Source: Spirochaetota bacterium
Lineage (GTDB): Bacteria > Spirochaetota > Spirochaetia > Treponematales > UBA12059
Assembly (NCBI GenBank): GCA_029547205.1
Contig: JAKPPT010000072.1
Coordinates: 248,001-312,000, forward strand
Reading direction: 5' to 3'
DNA length: 64,000 nt
Made by a program: the position numbers and the translations under genes. The stretch's first letter is position 1, and every line of letters begins with the position of its first letter. The notes under the pieces are model-generated. The model had not been told where the DNA came from, made no database searches, and saw nothing but the letters and a program-made list of their open reading frames with translations. Of this stretch, positions 32,900 through 39,136 are shown piece after piece.

Positions 32900-32928
32900 T
32901 TGACAACTTCCTTTACTATTATTAGAGT
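32900..32928 (+). promoter_or_regulatory. Promoter of the acidic-protein / MAF operon
   Basis: A perfect TTGACA (32900-32905) and TAGAGT (32923-32928) are spaced 17 bases apart. A start site near 32935 would give a 70-base leader before the ATG at 33005. Confidence 0.6.
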
Positions 32929-33004
32929 TATACTAGAGCAGTTTAATGTTTGTTATTTTCTGCCGATGTTATTCATATACAGCTATCCCGGGGAGCTTAG
33001 GGAA

Positions 33005-35014
33005 ATGATTGATAAGTCAAATAAAAATAGTTCTTCACAAGAACTTGAGCAATATGGTATCTGGGTAAAATCAGAACCTCAAGATATTGAAGAGCCAGAA
33101 GAAATGGCTATCAGTGCAGAAACAGATCAAGAGCTTACATTTGAAACAGTAGAAGAACTTGAGTCTCCACTCGTAATTGAGACACTTGATGATTTTACTG
33201 CTGCACCAGAAACATCGGAATTTGAAAACGAATTCAATGAAAAAACAAGTATGCTTACAGAAGATGACTCAATTATAGATATACCACTTGAAACACTCAT
33301 TGAGCAATCTAGCCCTATTCCTCCCAAAAAACAAACTGAAACTGTCCCTGAAATAAAAGAAAAATCTCCTTCACTTACTGTAGATGAAGTATCTTTAGAT
33401 GATTTTTTAGATACAACAACTGAAGAATCCTCTTCAGAAAACACAACTGTCAATATTGATGATTTTTTACAACAGGACGAGAATCAGAATCTCGAATCTG
33501 AAGAAGAACCCGAAGAAATTGAATCTATTGATATTGATTTACAATTTGATGATACCATCGAAACACCGCTCGATACTTTGGAAGATGATTTTGCTTCAGT
33601 CGATTTAGATTCTTTTGATACTTTAGCCAATGCTGAAATTTCAGAATTTGAAACAACTCTCCAGCCTCCTTCAATGAGTTCTGAAACTCAAAACGATGAA
33701 GAGATAGATGTTAGCTCAATGTTTATGGATAATGAACCAAAAGCAAGCACCCGTTCGCAATCATCAAAACCTCCAGTTCAGGAACAAGCTGACAAAGAGC
33801 GAAAAACTAATCTTGATGCTTTTATTGATAATGAAGCAAGTTTGCCAATAACAGAATTATCAATGGAAGAAATCGCAGAAGAACCTATTCCAGGTGATGA
33901 AAAAAGTACTGCTTCCTCAGATATTTCTATAACAATATTAAATCAAATAGCACAGGAACTTGCATCGATTAAAAGCGAACTAGCAAGCTTGAAATCTCAG
34001 ATACAGACCACTCAATCCTACAGTAAAAACGAGGCACAAAAACCAAATCAACAAAGTGAATCAAAAGGCTTTTTTGAAGAAGAAGATGATGAAACAATTG
34101 CTCTAACGGGTGATGAACTAGATAATATTTTAAATACAGCATCATTTACTGTTGAAGCGAGAGATCTAGAAAATGCTGAAACTCAGAGCTCTATTTCTGA
34201 TGCATCACTTGAAGAATCTGTAGAAACATTACTACCAGAAGATGGAAATTATTCCAATGAAAAGGGAATTGAGATAATTGATGGTGAACAGGAAATTGAA
34301 ACACTTTCTGATGAAAGTGAAAAGATTGACTTTAATGCCAATGAAATAGTTGATACATTAACTCCCTTTACTGAATTACAGGAAGATGAAATACAACTTT
34401 CAGAACAACCTGATTTAGAAGTATTAGAAGAGATACCATTAGAAGAACCAGATTTATCACAAATTGATCTGCCAAAAACAAATGAAGAATTATTATCAAC
34501 ACTTGAAGCAAATGAAGAAGAGCCATCGATTAATTTTTCTCACCCCGATGAAAATGTGCTTGATAGAATCGTTTTATCACTTGATGGTAATGAGCAAGTA
34601 ACTGAAACAGTTAACGAAGTACAATCTATTCCAGAAATTGAAGAAACTCCTATTAATCAAGAACCCATCGAATTGCTTGAAGAAATGCCTTTACAAACAA
34701 TAGAGGATGAATCGATTAGTATTAAGCATCCTGATGAATTAAAAACTCAGCTTGATGATTCTTTATTTATTGACACAAAAGATACCGAGGCGAAAGAATC
34801 ATTTAAGCCAGCTACTCAACAATCTGAACAGCCGAGCATTTCTGAAGCACCAAATGTTGATGTTTCAGTTAAATTAAAAAAAGATATAAAGACTGTTCTG
34901 TTATATCTCGATCAATTGCTTACTGCATTGCCAGAAGACAAAATTGAAGAATTTGCGAATTCTGAATATTATGATACATATAAAAAACTCTTTGAAGAAT
35001 TGGGGATAATTTAA
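33005..35014 (+). CDS. Long acidic low-complexity protein
   Basis: The ATG at 33005 follows AGGGA and lies behind the promoter; the in-frame start at 32900 lies inside it. The 669-residue protein is dominated by Glu, Asp, Ser, Thr and Leu with repeated amphipathic acidic segments (for example LDDFLDTTTEESSSENT), so it is likely disordered. A short basic coiled-coil lies near 315-345 (IAQELASIKSELASLKSQI). The C-terminal 45 residues (VSVKLKKDIKTVLLYLDQLL onward) are of different composition, probably a folded helical module. There is no signal peptide. Its stop overlaps the next gene (TAATG), so it belongs to the MAF operon; a scaffold or docking role is inference. Confidence 0.75.
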   Translation: MIDKSNKNSSSQELEQYGIWVKSEPQDIEEPEEMAISAETDQELTFETVEELESPLVIETLDDFTAAPETSEFENEFNEKTSMLTEDDSIIDIPLETLIEQSSPIPPKKQTETVPEIKEKSPSLTVDEVSLDDFLDTTTEESSSENTTVNIDDFLQQDENQNLESEEEPEEIESIDIDLQFDDTIETPLDTLEDDFASVDLDSFDTLANAEISEFETTLQPPSMSSETQNDEEIDVSSMFMDNEPKASTRSQSSKPPVQEQADKERKTNLDAFIDNEASLPITELSMEEIAEEPIPGDEKSTASSDISITILNQIAQELASIKSELASLKSQIQTTQSYSKNEAQKPNQQSESKGFFEEEDDETIALTGDELDNILNTASFTVEARDLENAETQSSISDASLEESVETLLPEDGNYSNEKGIEIIDGEQEIETLSDESEKIDFNANEIVDTLTPFTELQEDEIQLSEQPDLEVLEEIPLEEPDLSQIDLPKTNEELLSTLEANEEEPSINFSHPDENVLDRIVLSLDGNEQVTETVNEVQSIPEIEETPINQEPIELLEEMPLQTIEDESISIKHPDELKTQLDDSLFIDTKDTEAKESFKPATQQSEQPSISEAPNVDVSVKLKKDIKTVLLYLDQLLTALPEDKIEEFANSEYYDTYKKLFEELGII

Positions 35015-35927
35015 TGGGATTACTTGAAAAGGCTGATATAACAAAAAAAATGAAATTGACTGAAAATTCTGTTGTAGAGCCAACAGGATTATTAAAAAGA
35101 GCTGAAAAAAAAAACTAGATGCACCACGTGCATCTCAGACTGTTTTCCCTGAACCAAACAGTAATGAACAAACTATTAAAGAAATCTTATCAACACAGCC
35201 ATATTGGATACTTCCTTATACGGTAATGAGTCAAATTGAAGCACATGCTACACCAGCATTGTTACTTTTAATTTATAAAAATAACCTTAAACGTATTCAT
35301 AGTGCACACAACATGGAATTATCTGAAACAAATCAAAATAAAATTTTACAATTAGTACCAACATTACAGAATTCATTGAATATATGTACTGCACTTACTG
35401 ATGATACTATGGTGTATGCTTTCCCCTGTACAAATATAATTATTGTATATAAGTTAACAACTTATACTGAAAATTTTTTTTCGATATTAATAAAACATAT
35501 TGCAACATGTTCTCTTCCAAAAGTTTTTGCCTGTGGCAATTATAGTGAATGTTCCGATGATAATTGTGCTTCCGAAATTACAGCACTTGGAAATTCTATA
35601 ACAATGCCGTGTTATACACTAATTAGTATAAATATTCAGCCAATTTCTGCATATTTCAATAAGGTAAATCTTTTTCAGTTTTCTGGTGATGAAATTTGTG
35701 ACCATCTTGCATTGATGCTTGCAAATCTTAATCCAGCACTTTCATTAACTATTAAAAAAAATAATACAACTATTTTTTATGTAATTTTTCACAAACAACA
35801 TCATAACAGTAATCTTATTGTGCAACCATTTATTAGACTACTTGATTCATTACTACAGCTTCCCCAAACTTTTATAAAGATACTTGAAACACGCACAATA
35901 AAACACTCTATAACCGAAAACCAGTAA
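35014..35927 (+). CDS. Hypothetical protein, frameshifted at a poly-A run
   Basis: ATG at 35014 overlaps the upstream stop (TAATG). Translation runs MGLLEKADITKKMK...TGLLKRAEKKN and stops at TAG (35116-35118), just after ten A residues (35105-35114). The open frame that reaches 35927 continues from the same tract in another frame, reading KKKLDAPRASQTVFPEP. Adding one A restores a single protein of about 304 residues; ten A gives two pieces. An ATG at 35226 is not a plausible natural start. Two GLLxxA motifs occur near the N terminus. The rest is unrecognised, without membrane segments. Candidates are a sequencing error, slippage, or phase variation. Confidence 0.7.
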
Positions 35928-35954: not shown

Positions 35955-37475
35955 ATGAACGGTTCAAGCTCAGTTCACTTCCACTCACAGTATAATCCTA
36001 AAAAAGAAGCAGAACGGTTTGTTGCAAACTCATTAAAAGATAAAAAGCCAGGTGTAATCATTGTAATTGGTCCTGGTGAGAATTATATTAAAGATGTCCT
36101 TGATACTTCATTTTCATATGCAAAAAAATACTATATTCAACCATGTAGCCTTTTTGACACAATCTCAATTAATCAAGCATTTTATTGGAGTCCGGCAAGC
36201 TCCATACCCCTCAAGGATTTTTTACATCAAATAGTGTATGATGAATTTTCAGCTGCAGGTATTGCTGTTCTTGAGTGGGAACCAGTGACTCGCTATTTTG
36301 CACAAGAAAGCAATGTAATTCGTAATGAACTTGCAAAGGTACTGGCTGCTACAGCATCTGAAAAAGCTACAATTGCATATTGGTCTAAACGGTGGCTTAT
36401 TAACAGTATCAAATTTAGTAGTGGCGCACGTAATGTTTTATCACTTAATTCTCTTGATAAACCGATAGCGATTCTTGCAGCAGGACCAGGTCTGAGCGAC
36501 TATATTAATTTTATTAAAGCAAACAAAAATAAGCTATTTATTATTTGTATTGCATCTGCATTGCCTGCTATACTCGAACATGACATATACCCTGATGCTG
36601 TATTTTTATCTGATCCTGGTTACTGGAATACATTTCATACGCGTTTAATAAAACGTGCTCAGATTCCAATCATTATGCCTCCATCAGCACGTATTCCTAC
36701 AGATTTATTTTCACAGGAATTTTTTGTTGTAAACACTAATCTTATATTTGAACGATTTGCAATACAAGCGATCGGTTGCCCAAGTTACTATGCTAAAGCT
36801 TTTGGAACATCTGTTGGAACTGCACTTGATTTTGCTCTTCATATTACAAACAATCGAGTGCTAATTTTTGGTTTTGACCTTGCTTCATACGATATTGTAT
36901 CACATGTTATACCATATTCTTTTCTAACTTTATCATTGCAAAATAGTTCACGACTCACTCCATTTTATGCAAGACAATTTAGTGAGGTTACAGAACAGTT
37001 CCCGGAAACAATCAACGCATGGCGCTTTTCTCGATCATTTAATACATATGCCCAGGAACTTCCTGTTTCAGATGAATCATGTACAAGAATTATTCGCTTT
37101 TCAAAAAGCCCAATGATTAAACAGTATGAGAATCTTGCAGTTATTACAAAGGATTTTGACACCTATGACTTTTCATTTCTTAATTATGTTTCAAATGAAG
37201 TGTATATTACTAAAAATGTCTATCAAAATTCGATTTCAATAAAAACGCTTTTACAAAAATTTTTTGCTGAAGCAATACAAAAATTACAGAATAATACTTC
37301 CTTTGGATTGACATACGATGAAATTCTATTTTTTAAAGCACTCTCTATAAAAAAATTTAATGAAACCTTTGCTCTTGCAATACGAAATGAATTAAAACAA
37401 GAAACGATAAACCATTTTATTGAAGCAAGCAGTGAAGCATTATCTGCAATTCTATCGAGATATTGTTCTGATTAG
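35955..37475 (+). CDS. MAF/DUF115-family protein, copy 1
   Basis: This 506-residue protein has the DUF115 core. A Rossmann-like motif PIAILAAGPGLSDYINFIKANKNKLFIICIASALPAIL is at about residues 170-207, followed by HDIYPDAVFLSDPGYW. The N-terminal region (residues 1-150) is mainly alpha/beta without a known motif. DUF115 proteins include flagellin-modifying motility accessory factors and MptE-like enzymes, so transfer of nonulosonic acid or another sugar to flagellin is the most likely role. The segment YAKAFGTSVGTALDFALHITN fits a later Rossmann strand-loop. It lies 27 bases after the frameshifted gene and 8 before a second copy. Confidence 0.8.
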   Translation: MNGSSSVHFHSQYNPKKEAERFVANSLKDKKPGVIIVIGPGENYIKDVLDTSFSYAKKYYIQPCSLFDTISINQAFYWSPASSIPLKDFLHQIVYDEFSAAGIAVLEWEPVTRYFAQESNVIRNELAKVLAATASEKATIAYWSKRWLINSIKFSSGARNVLSLNSLDKPIAILAAGPGLSDYINFIKANKNKLFIICIASALPAILEHDIYPDAVFLSDPGYWNTFHTRLIKRAQIPIIMPPSARIPTDLFSQEFFVVNTNLIFERFAIQAIGCPSYYAKAFGTSVGTALDFALHITNNRVLIFGFDLASYDIVSHVIPYSFLTLSLQNSSRLTPFYARQFSEVTEQFPETINAWRFSRSFNTYAQELPVSDESCTRIIRFSKSPMIKQYENLAVITKDFDTYDFSFLNYVSNEVYITKNVYQNSISIKTLLQKFFAEAIQKLQNNTSFGLTYDEILFFKALSIKKFNETFALAIRNELKQETINHFIEASSEALSAILSRYCSD

Positions 37476-37483
37476 GAAAATCA

Positions 37484-39136
37484 ATGGACTTTGTCAATAA
37501 AAATCTAAAAGCATTAGAAAATCGATTCTTTACTGAAACATTATATAAAAACACGACTGATGTTTTTGTTGAAATAAAAACATCCAGAAGTGGATATCCT
37601 ATTCCTGTATTATCAAATCATAATCATTCAGTTACCCTCCACTCAGTGTATGATCCAGTACTTGAAGCGCAGAGGTTAACTAACGAATATACCAATAGTG
37701 CACGCGGTTTATATGTTTTCTTAGGATTGGGTGGTGGTTACCATATTCAAGAAATAATAAAAAAAAATCCAGAATCAAAAATAATAATTATAGAAACTAA
37801 TCTAAATCTTTTTTTTAATCTTATTAAATTAATTGATTATTCAGAGATTTTTTCACATGAAAACCTTTTTGTGTATGTTGATTATAATCCAGAAGCTTTT
37901 GAGGAAATAATCAAACAAATTTTTAATTATTTTTTTGACACACATTGTTATACTATTCCTTTGCGTAGCAGAATAAATTTTGACAACTATGAATATTTTT
38001 CTGCTTGCAGTACAATTATTGACTCAACGATACAAAACATTGCTTCAGATATTGCTATACAGGCACAATTTGGATATCAGTGGCTAAAAAACATTATAAA
38101 AAATTTTAATCTGCTAAAACATAATAAAATATTTAAGCTTCCAAAAGCTCATGTAATAATAACTGGTGCTGGACCTTCACTTGAATCTTATAAGACTATC
38201 AATGCTATTAAAAATCAATTACATACACATTGGCTCTTAGCTACCGATACGAGTGTTGGATTTTTACTTGCACATAATATTGTTCCTGATGCGATAATAA
38301 GCATCGACTGCCAGATATATAGCACATTTCATTTTAAGCATCGTATACAAGATACTACTACACTATTTCTCGATATTGCATCTCCTTCTAGCCTTGCAAG
38401 AAAATACTCCAATATATTCTTTTTTGGTTCTTATCATCCACTCTGTGTATATCTTTCACAAAAGACTAATGCGTTTCCGTTATTAGATTGCTCGGGTGGA
38501 AATGTAGTCTCTGCAGCTTGTGAATTAGTCTCAATGCTCGGAGCACAAACAGTTACTGTTTATGGTGCAGATTTTTCATATCCAGGTGGATCCCTTTATG
38601 CGAGAGGAACATATCTGTACGATTTATTTCAATCACAAGAAACAAGAATAATGCCTCTTACAACGTTATTTATGAAAATTCTTTTTCGAACTGCTATTAG
38701 ACGAATAAATCTGGGAACTACTTTTAGATATGAAAATGAACTATTAACGTCATATCATGATATGCTTCAGAAAAAAATACAAAATCACAGGTGCAAATAT
38801 CAATTTATTTCTGAATATGGATTGCCTATAATTATAAACCATAAAGACACTACAACAAATGAACAAGAGATTTTTATTCAAAAAGGAATTGATGTAAATT
38901 TGCTATTAAGCGAATATATAGATAAGCTGAAACAATTACAGGATAATATTGGGCAAAAAAAATATAAAGAAAGTAATTTACAATTTGATCCTGTTTTTAA
39001 TACACTACTTCCTCTTCTTGCATTCTTAAAGAAACATTCACGAGATCGAGATTTCTTTAGTTTGTTGCAAAATGCTATTGAACTTACAATACAAAAAATT
39101 GAAACCCAGCTATACAATACTAACCAGTACATGTAG
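37484..39136 (+). CDS. MAF/DUF115-family protein, copy 2
   Basis: This 550-residue paralogue has the same core: HVIITGAGPSLESYKTINAI, WLLATDTSVGFLLAHNIVPDAIISIDCQIYSTFHF, and later TVYGADFSYPGGSLYARGTYLYDLF, a characteristic motif of the family. The N-terminal domain contains a nucleotide-binding-like GLYVFLGLGGGYHIQEIIKKNP (about residues 75-96). Its full complement of motifs suggests it is catalytic, and copy 1 may be divergent. The tandem copies following an acidic protein form a likely flagellar glycosylation set. The 3' end overlaps the convergent gene by 17 bases. Confidence 0.85.
   Translation: MDFVNKNLKALENRFFTETLYKNTTDVFVEIKTSRSGYPIPVLSNHNHSVTLHSVYDPVLEAQRLTNEYTNSARGLYVFLGLGGGYHIQEIIKKNPESKIIIIETNLNLFFNLIKLIDYSEIFSHENLFVYVDYNPEAFEEIIKQIFNYFFDTHCYTIPLRSRINFDNYEYFSACSTIIDSTIQNIASDIAIQAQFGYQWLKNIIKNFNLLKHNKIFKLPKAHVIITGAGPSLESYKTINAIKNQLHTHWLLATDTSVGFLLAHNIVPDAIISIDCQIYSTFHFKHRIQDTTTLFLDIASPSSLARKYSNIFFFGSYHPLCVYLSQKTNAFPLLDCSGGNVVSAACELVSMLGAQTVTVYGADFSYPGGSLYARGTYLYDLFQSQETRIMPLTTLFMKILFRTAIRRINLGTTFRYENELLTSYHDMLQKKIQNHRCKYQFISEYGLPIIINHKDTTTNEQEIFIQKGIDVNLLLSEYIDKLKQLQDNIGQKKYKESNLQFDPVFNTLLPLLAFLKKHSRDRDFFSLLQNAIELTIQKIETQLYNTNQYM

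Follow-up and report, generated by a model that had tools for sequence, protein, structure and literature searches.

The analysed window, a 64,000-nt stretch of the genome of an uncultured spirochaete, contains a small split gene located between the gene for an acidic protein and two consecutive genes for MptE-like proteins (Table 1). The split gene begins with an ATG at position 35014, overlapping the stop codon of the acidic-protein gene, and its zero frame runs for 34 codons before a TAG at 35116–35118. A second frame, open from 35106, ends with a stop codon at 35925–35927. The two frames overlap solely across 35106–35115, which places the switch point at the run of ten A residues (A10) at 35105–35114 of the forward strand, the longest homopolymer in the window. 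The initial annotation had located the frame change at this run and proposed that an eleventh A would restore one protein of about 304 residues; the overlap confirms the former, and arithmetic on the coordinates gives a single frame of 304 codons after the addition of one base. Read on the opposite strand, the stem-loop at 35115–35139 followed by T10 resembles an intrinsic terminator.

Table 1. Features of the split-gene locus (window coordinates).
Feature	Position	Strand	Basis or remark
Upstream acidic protein, 704 aa by mechanical start	32900..35014	+	Conserved ending YDTYKxLFxxLG, marks synteny
Zero-frame ORF, 34 codons, short product	35014..35118	+	N-terminal pattern also in relatives
A10 tract, proposed transcriptional slippage site	35105..35114	+	Frames, conservation, rarity
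Second frame, C-terminal part of the putative long product	35106..35927	+	Open frame; fold of a relative
Stem-loop directly 3' of the A10 tract	35115..35139	+	RNA folding
MptE-like protein (PF01973), anchor for orthologous loci	35955..37475	+	Family-database match
MptE-like protein with Maf_flag10_N (PF20157), flagellin glycosylation type	37484..39136	+	Family-database match

Conservation of the tract within the family

Used as a query in protein searches, the second-frame protein recovered no relatives in 22 other genomes of the family and none in the named genomes. Since it is too divergent for a direct search, the downstream MptE-like gene was taken as an anchor, and it was matched in all 23 family genomes, the window's own genome (G000) included. 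Family members also appeared under record names such as HGW-Spirochaetae-3 and -7, RIFOXYC1_FULL_54_7 and SZUA-370; these are metagenome-assembled Spirochaetota from several separate projects, several of them being genomes already counted rather than extra samples. In the family loci, the same small gene sits between the acidic-protein gene and the MptE-like gene, with an M[GS]LLxxA start in nearly all relatives and a lysine run before the frame junction.

The site was readable in 20 of the 23 genomes, namely G000 and 19 relatives, which represent 10 genera and were separately assembled; the contig ends before the site in G015 and G021, and only a distant paralogue was found in G008. All 20 loci carry A10 or A9 at the frame junction. 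In seventeen, the tract is A10 and the frames are out of register by the same offset, so that one extra base is needed to join them, and two (G016 and G001) have A9 out of frame, where two more bases or one fewer are needed. The remaining locus, G010, has A10 in frame and in another codon phase, and one extra A there leads to a stop after 5 codons. The tract is thus exactly A10 in 18/20 loci and out of frame in 19/20, and A11 was seen at the site in none of the 20. G014 is represented by two strain copies, both with A10. The initial annotation had suggested counting the A residues in other isolates, and the count across the family argues for its slippage option, since both a tract of at least nine A at the junction and the relation between the frames are conserved in the homologues. 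A gene that appears "broken" in the window likewise appears so in nearly all family members.

When the frame overlap was intersected over the out-of-frame loci, it covered +1 to +11 from the tract start, that is, the tract itself. The second frame is open for 123–371 codons in every family locus, the lowest value being ended by a contig edge, and the C-terminal parts are very divergent (~7–15% identity to that of the window). Lysine codons in these parts are split about evenly between AAA (61) and AAG (62), and an unbroken run of A is therefore not expected from codon choice. The scarcity of in-frame states is statistically weak by genus (1/10 versus an expected 1/3, P = 0.10, not significant); counted by genome, P is 0.003, but genomes are not independent. 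We therefore place the weight on the conserved tract, its position and its offset.

Rarity of long A tracts in the family genomes

An exact-A10 search of all 23 family genomes, with overlapping matches merged, returned 57 distinct tracts of at least ten A: 19 at this site (18 genomes, G014 twice), 10 in dnaX, 3 in ftsK and 25 elsewhere. A10 is therefore found at the homologous position in 18/23 genomes searched, and in G011, G012, G019 and G022 it is the sole A10 of the genome, although G011 and G012 are incomplete. The window's own genome has 5 A10 sites versus ~35 expected from its base composition. GC reaches ~69% at the locus, and A10 is almost absent from the family genomes; random placement would give the observed 10 of 11 with a probability of ~4e-39, a value that ignores relatedness.

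Other A10 sites of the same genome lie near the start of an LPG_synthase_C gene (L162) and in a region where no long frame is open (L163). A further one, G000:C149:58471-58480 (L165), splits a second gene (L168, 1755-3762, minus strand): one frame encodes a membrane part and the beginning of a GGDEF domain, and a different frame the remainder of GGDEF together with EAL. The frame offset there is unlike that of the main site.

Tracts in dnaX and ftsK

The dnaX gene was located in 20 of the 23 family genomes (loci L127–L146). Nine of them (G001, G002, G003, G005, G006, G007, G010, G020 and G021) carry an in-frame A10 after domain III, followed in both other frames by stops within 10 codons. In the remaining 11, the window's own dnaX among them, no tract is present at that place; G009 has A10 near the C-terminus instead. 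According to the available text of two sources, Thermus thermophilus produces the tau and gamma forms of DnaX via polymerase slippage (PMC5009743, PMC1088944). The in-frame A10 of the family dnaX reproduces the Thermus arrangement and serves as an internal positive control, which supports a slippage reading of the split gene.

In ftsK, the linker preceding the motor domains contains an in-frame A10 in G000:C69:53181-53190 (L161) and G020:C10:3488-3497 (L107) and an in-frame A11 in G021:C69:1925-1935 (L192), a gene identified as ftsK from its resemblance to the first two. In all three, stops follow the tract within 8 codons in both other frames, and slippage could possibly produce a truncated FtsK. 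The presence of this tract in the window's own genome and two sister genomes lends further support to the slippage reading.

State outside the family and origin of the tract

As an outgroup, 32 loci were taken from the order's other families, and 28 of them were evaluable. A single ORF extends from the stop of the acidic-protein gene onward in 26 of these, and the remaining two have a gap without any gene. Runs of at least nine A occur in just two of the 28 loci, L088 (A9) and L095 (A11), both inside one open frame. The A11 of L095 (G184, another family) lies in frame at an N-terminal KKK, where slippage would truncate the orthologue. At L051 (G064), likewise from outside the family, no stop appears to separate the acidic-protein gene from this one; they share a frame of 476 codons and may be fused.

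A 29-row tree of the MptE-like protein places the 21 rows of the family in one group with support 90/90. The two A9 loci fall separately, pointing to separate origins, and G010 belongs to an unresolved three-way split at the family base. The grouping of the family, the position of G010 and the occurrence of the tract throughout the family together indicate that the tract arose at or near the family base. The gene would then have been one ORF before the family arose, with the tract and the frame offset gained at or near that point.

Predicted products

The short product has 28–51 residues in the 19 out-of-frame genomes; in the window it contains two GLLxKA-like motifs (MGLLEKA and GLLKRA) and ends with KKN before the stop codon. 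For the C-terminal part, the model of the window's own protein was poor (pLDDT 62.1), and the fold was assessed on a relative, L066 (257 residues), predicted with a pLDDT of 87.2. Residues 5–121 of L066 align with GAF domains (best VIA Z 9.8, rmsd 3.5) and residues 122–257 with GGDEF domains (best VIA Z 9.8, rmsd 3.7), the Foldseek E-values being modest (best 2e-4). The protein gave no useful match in family databases and none against PDB sequences, PF00990 (GGDEF) was matched in none of 34 members at E 0.1, and no GGDEF motif was seen in the C-part sequences, which makes diguanylate cyclase activity unlikely. Going by the structural model of this relative, the gene product seems to combine a GAF domain with a degenerate GGDEF domain.

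PelD, a c-di-GMP receptor, likewise consists of a GAF domain and a degenerate GGDEF domain. The domain order is the same and PelD entries are among the Foldseek matches; however, the whole-chain TM is low and there is no sequence match. PelD-like binding of c-di-GMP is a hypothetical property of the product. The initial annotation had placed the gene in a flagellar glycosylation operon. This fits the neighbours, as both downstream genes are MptE-like and the second also carries Maf_flag10_N, but the gene itself does not look like a glycosyltransferase. From these MptE-like and Maf-type neighbours alone, its product might serve the flagellar glycosylation genes as a sensor-like or scaffold protein.

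Slippage and its alternatives

We consider the A10 tract to be a family-wide, selectively maintained site of programmed transcriptional slippage (realignment), with a probability of roughly three in four as judged from comparative sequence evidence. The A run is most likely a built-in switch through which a single gene would yield both a short and a long protein. RNA polymerase would slip on A10 and release mRNAs with 9, 10, 11 or more A residues. Unslipped mRNA would encode the ~34-residue peptide with its two GLLxKA-like motifs and lysine tail, and mRNA with one additional A (modulo 3) would encode the protein of ~304 residues that includes the GAF-like and degenerate GGDEF-like domains. The comparison shows the tract, the two frames, their conservation, the outgroup state and the fold predicted for a relative, whereas slippage itself, its level and the roles of both products are inferred; perhaps the tract keeps an N-terminal docking peptide in constant proportion to a sensor-like protein, which would act on the flagellar glycosylation proteins encoded alongside it.

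The main rival is programmed -1 ribosomal frameshifting on A_AAA_AAN at the end of the tract, aided by a 3' stem-loop, with the mRNA keeping its ten A residues. E. coli dnaX works in this way, with -1 frameshifting on A_AAA_AAG and a 3' stem-loop. Our site shares an in-phase heptamer, A_AAA_AA[GCT], which is present at each of the 17 loci where A10 is out of frame, the protein being continued there in the -1 frame, and some 3' structure: the 60 nt immediately following the tract show more RNA structure (mean z -1.39 versus ~-0.1 at most other positions), most strongly in G006, G011, G000 and G007. It differs from E. coli dnaX in the excess length of the tract, the A9 variants and a second tRNA-Lys. 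The dnaX-type arrangement does not extend to every member: at the two A9 loci (G016 and G001), a step of -1 does not lead into the C frame. A ribosomal shift of that kind cannot join the frames there, which argues against ribosomal frameshifting. The tract is kept at 9–10 A though 7 would do, spacers between tract and stem range from 0 to more than 10 nt (several being 0–3 nt), and no Shine-Dalgarno-like element common to the upstream sequences was seen by eye. tRNA-Lys(CTT) was found in 12/12 family genomes tested; the available text of PMC5009743 ties this tRNA to polymerase slippage over ribosomal shifting in Thermus, and on that basis ribosomal slippage on A_AAA_AAG is disfavoured. We regard ribosomal frameshifting as a distinctly less probable explanation that still deserves attention, and the two processes may act together.

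Two further candidates were rejected. The 40 nt upstream of the tract, considered for a 5' stem-loop as a slippage stimulator, showed a mean z of just -0.26. As for translational coupling or an internal start, the second frame has no conserved start codon close to where the zero frame ends; start codons at +16 occur only in G007 (ATG) and G006 (GTG).

Phase variation, also proposed in the initial annotation, would have replication slippage alter the tract length and switch the gene on or off between cells. Long A tracts mutate easily, A9 and A10 are both present, and the operon may act on surface structures. However, tract length and offset are nearly fixed over 10 genera, both G014 strain copies agree, A11 is absent from the site, and the sole in-frame case is still A10, all of which makes phase variation improbable. 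It is still harder to regard the gene as a decaying fossil in which the frameshift is a pseudogene mutation and the second frame yields nothing: the low identity of the C parts would fit such decay, but the second frame stays open in every family locus, the C part of a relative folds into two known domains, and the tract is kept over long divergence. A sequencing or assembly error, the remaining option of the initial annotation, has a negligible chance, because the same tract and frame break recur in 19/20 readable, separately assembled genomes, even though homopolymers are error-prone and the two A9 calls could themselves be assembly errors. Judging by the sequences compared, the A10 tract is real, and neither faulty assembly nor a recent mutation accounts for it.

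Comparison with known slippage systems

Thermus thermophilus dnaX (A9) is similar to the proposed site in having an A9–A10 tract in a coding sequence, with polymerase slippage giving two lengths of one protein, and the spirochaete family has A10 in its own dnaX. The polarity differs, since in Thermus the genomic frame gives the long form and slippage the short one, whereas here the genomic frame gives the short form, except in G010. In Shigella flexneri mxiE, as described in the available text of PMC1088944, two overlapping ORFs are joined only once a base is added in a homopolymer. The need for an extra base is shared; however, mxiE has a run of U and encodes a regulator of one pathogen, whereas A10 here lies in an uncharacterised GAF/GGDEF-like gene and is family-wide. 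For Buchnera and Blochmannia, the available portion of PMC5009743 describes frames that are interrupted at poly(A) and restored when the polymerase slips. The broken frame and the proposed slippage are common to both cases, but those genomes are AT-rich and reduced, in contrast to the A10-poor genomes of this family, with up to ~69% GC at the locus.

Implications

In the literature searched for slippage in spirochaetes and in ftsK, as judged by titles and the openings of abstracts, we found no paper on this gene or on slippage in this family. Homopolymer-split genes are routinely called pseudogenes or sequencing errors; here, the split state is kept across a family, in a gene beside flagellar glycosylation genes, and with a built-in positive control in dnaX. 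The natural set of loci, with A10 or A9 out of frame, with an in-frame A10 or with no tract, is suited to the study of how slippage evolves and is selected.

More tentatively, and with rather less than even odds, polymerase slippage might be a general device of the family, with A10 purged except in dnaX, ftsK and the GAF/GGDEF-like gene, where it would set fixed ratios of truncated to full-length products that serve replication, the segregation of chromosomes or cell division, and the glycosylation of flagella. If this is true, these product ratios might shift with nucleotide pools.
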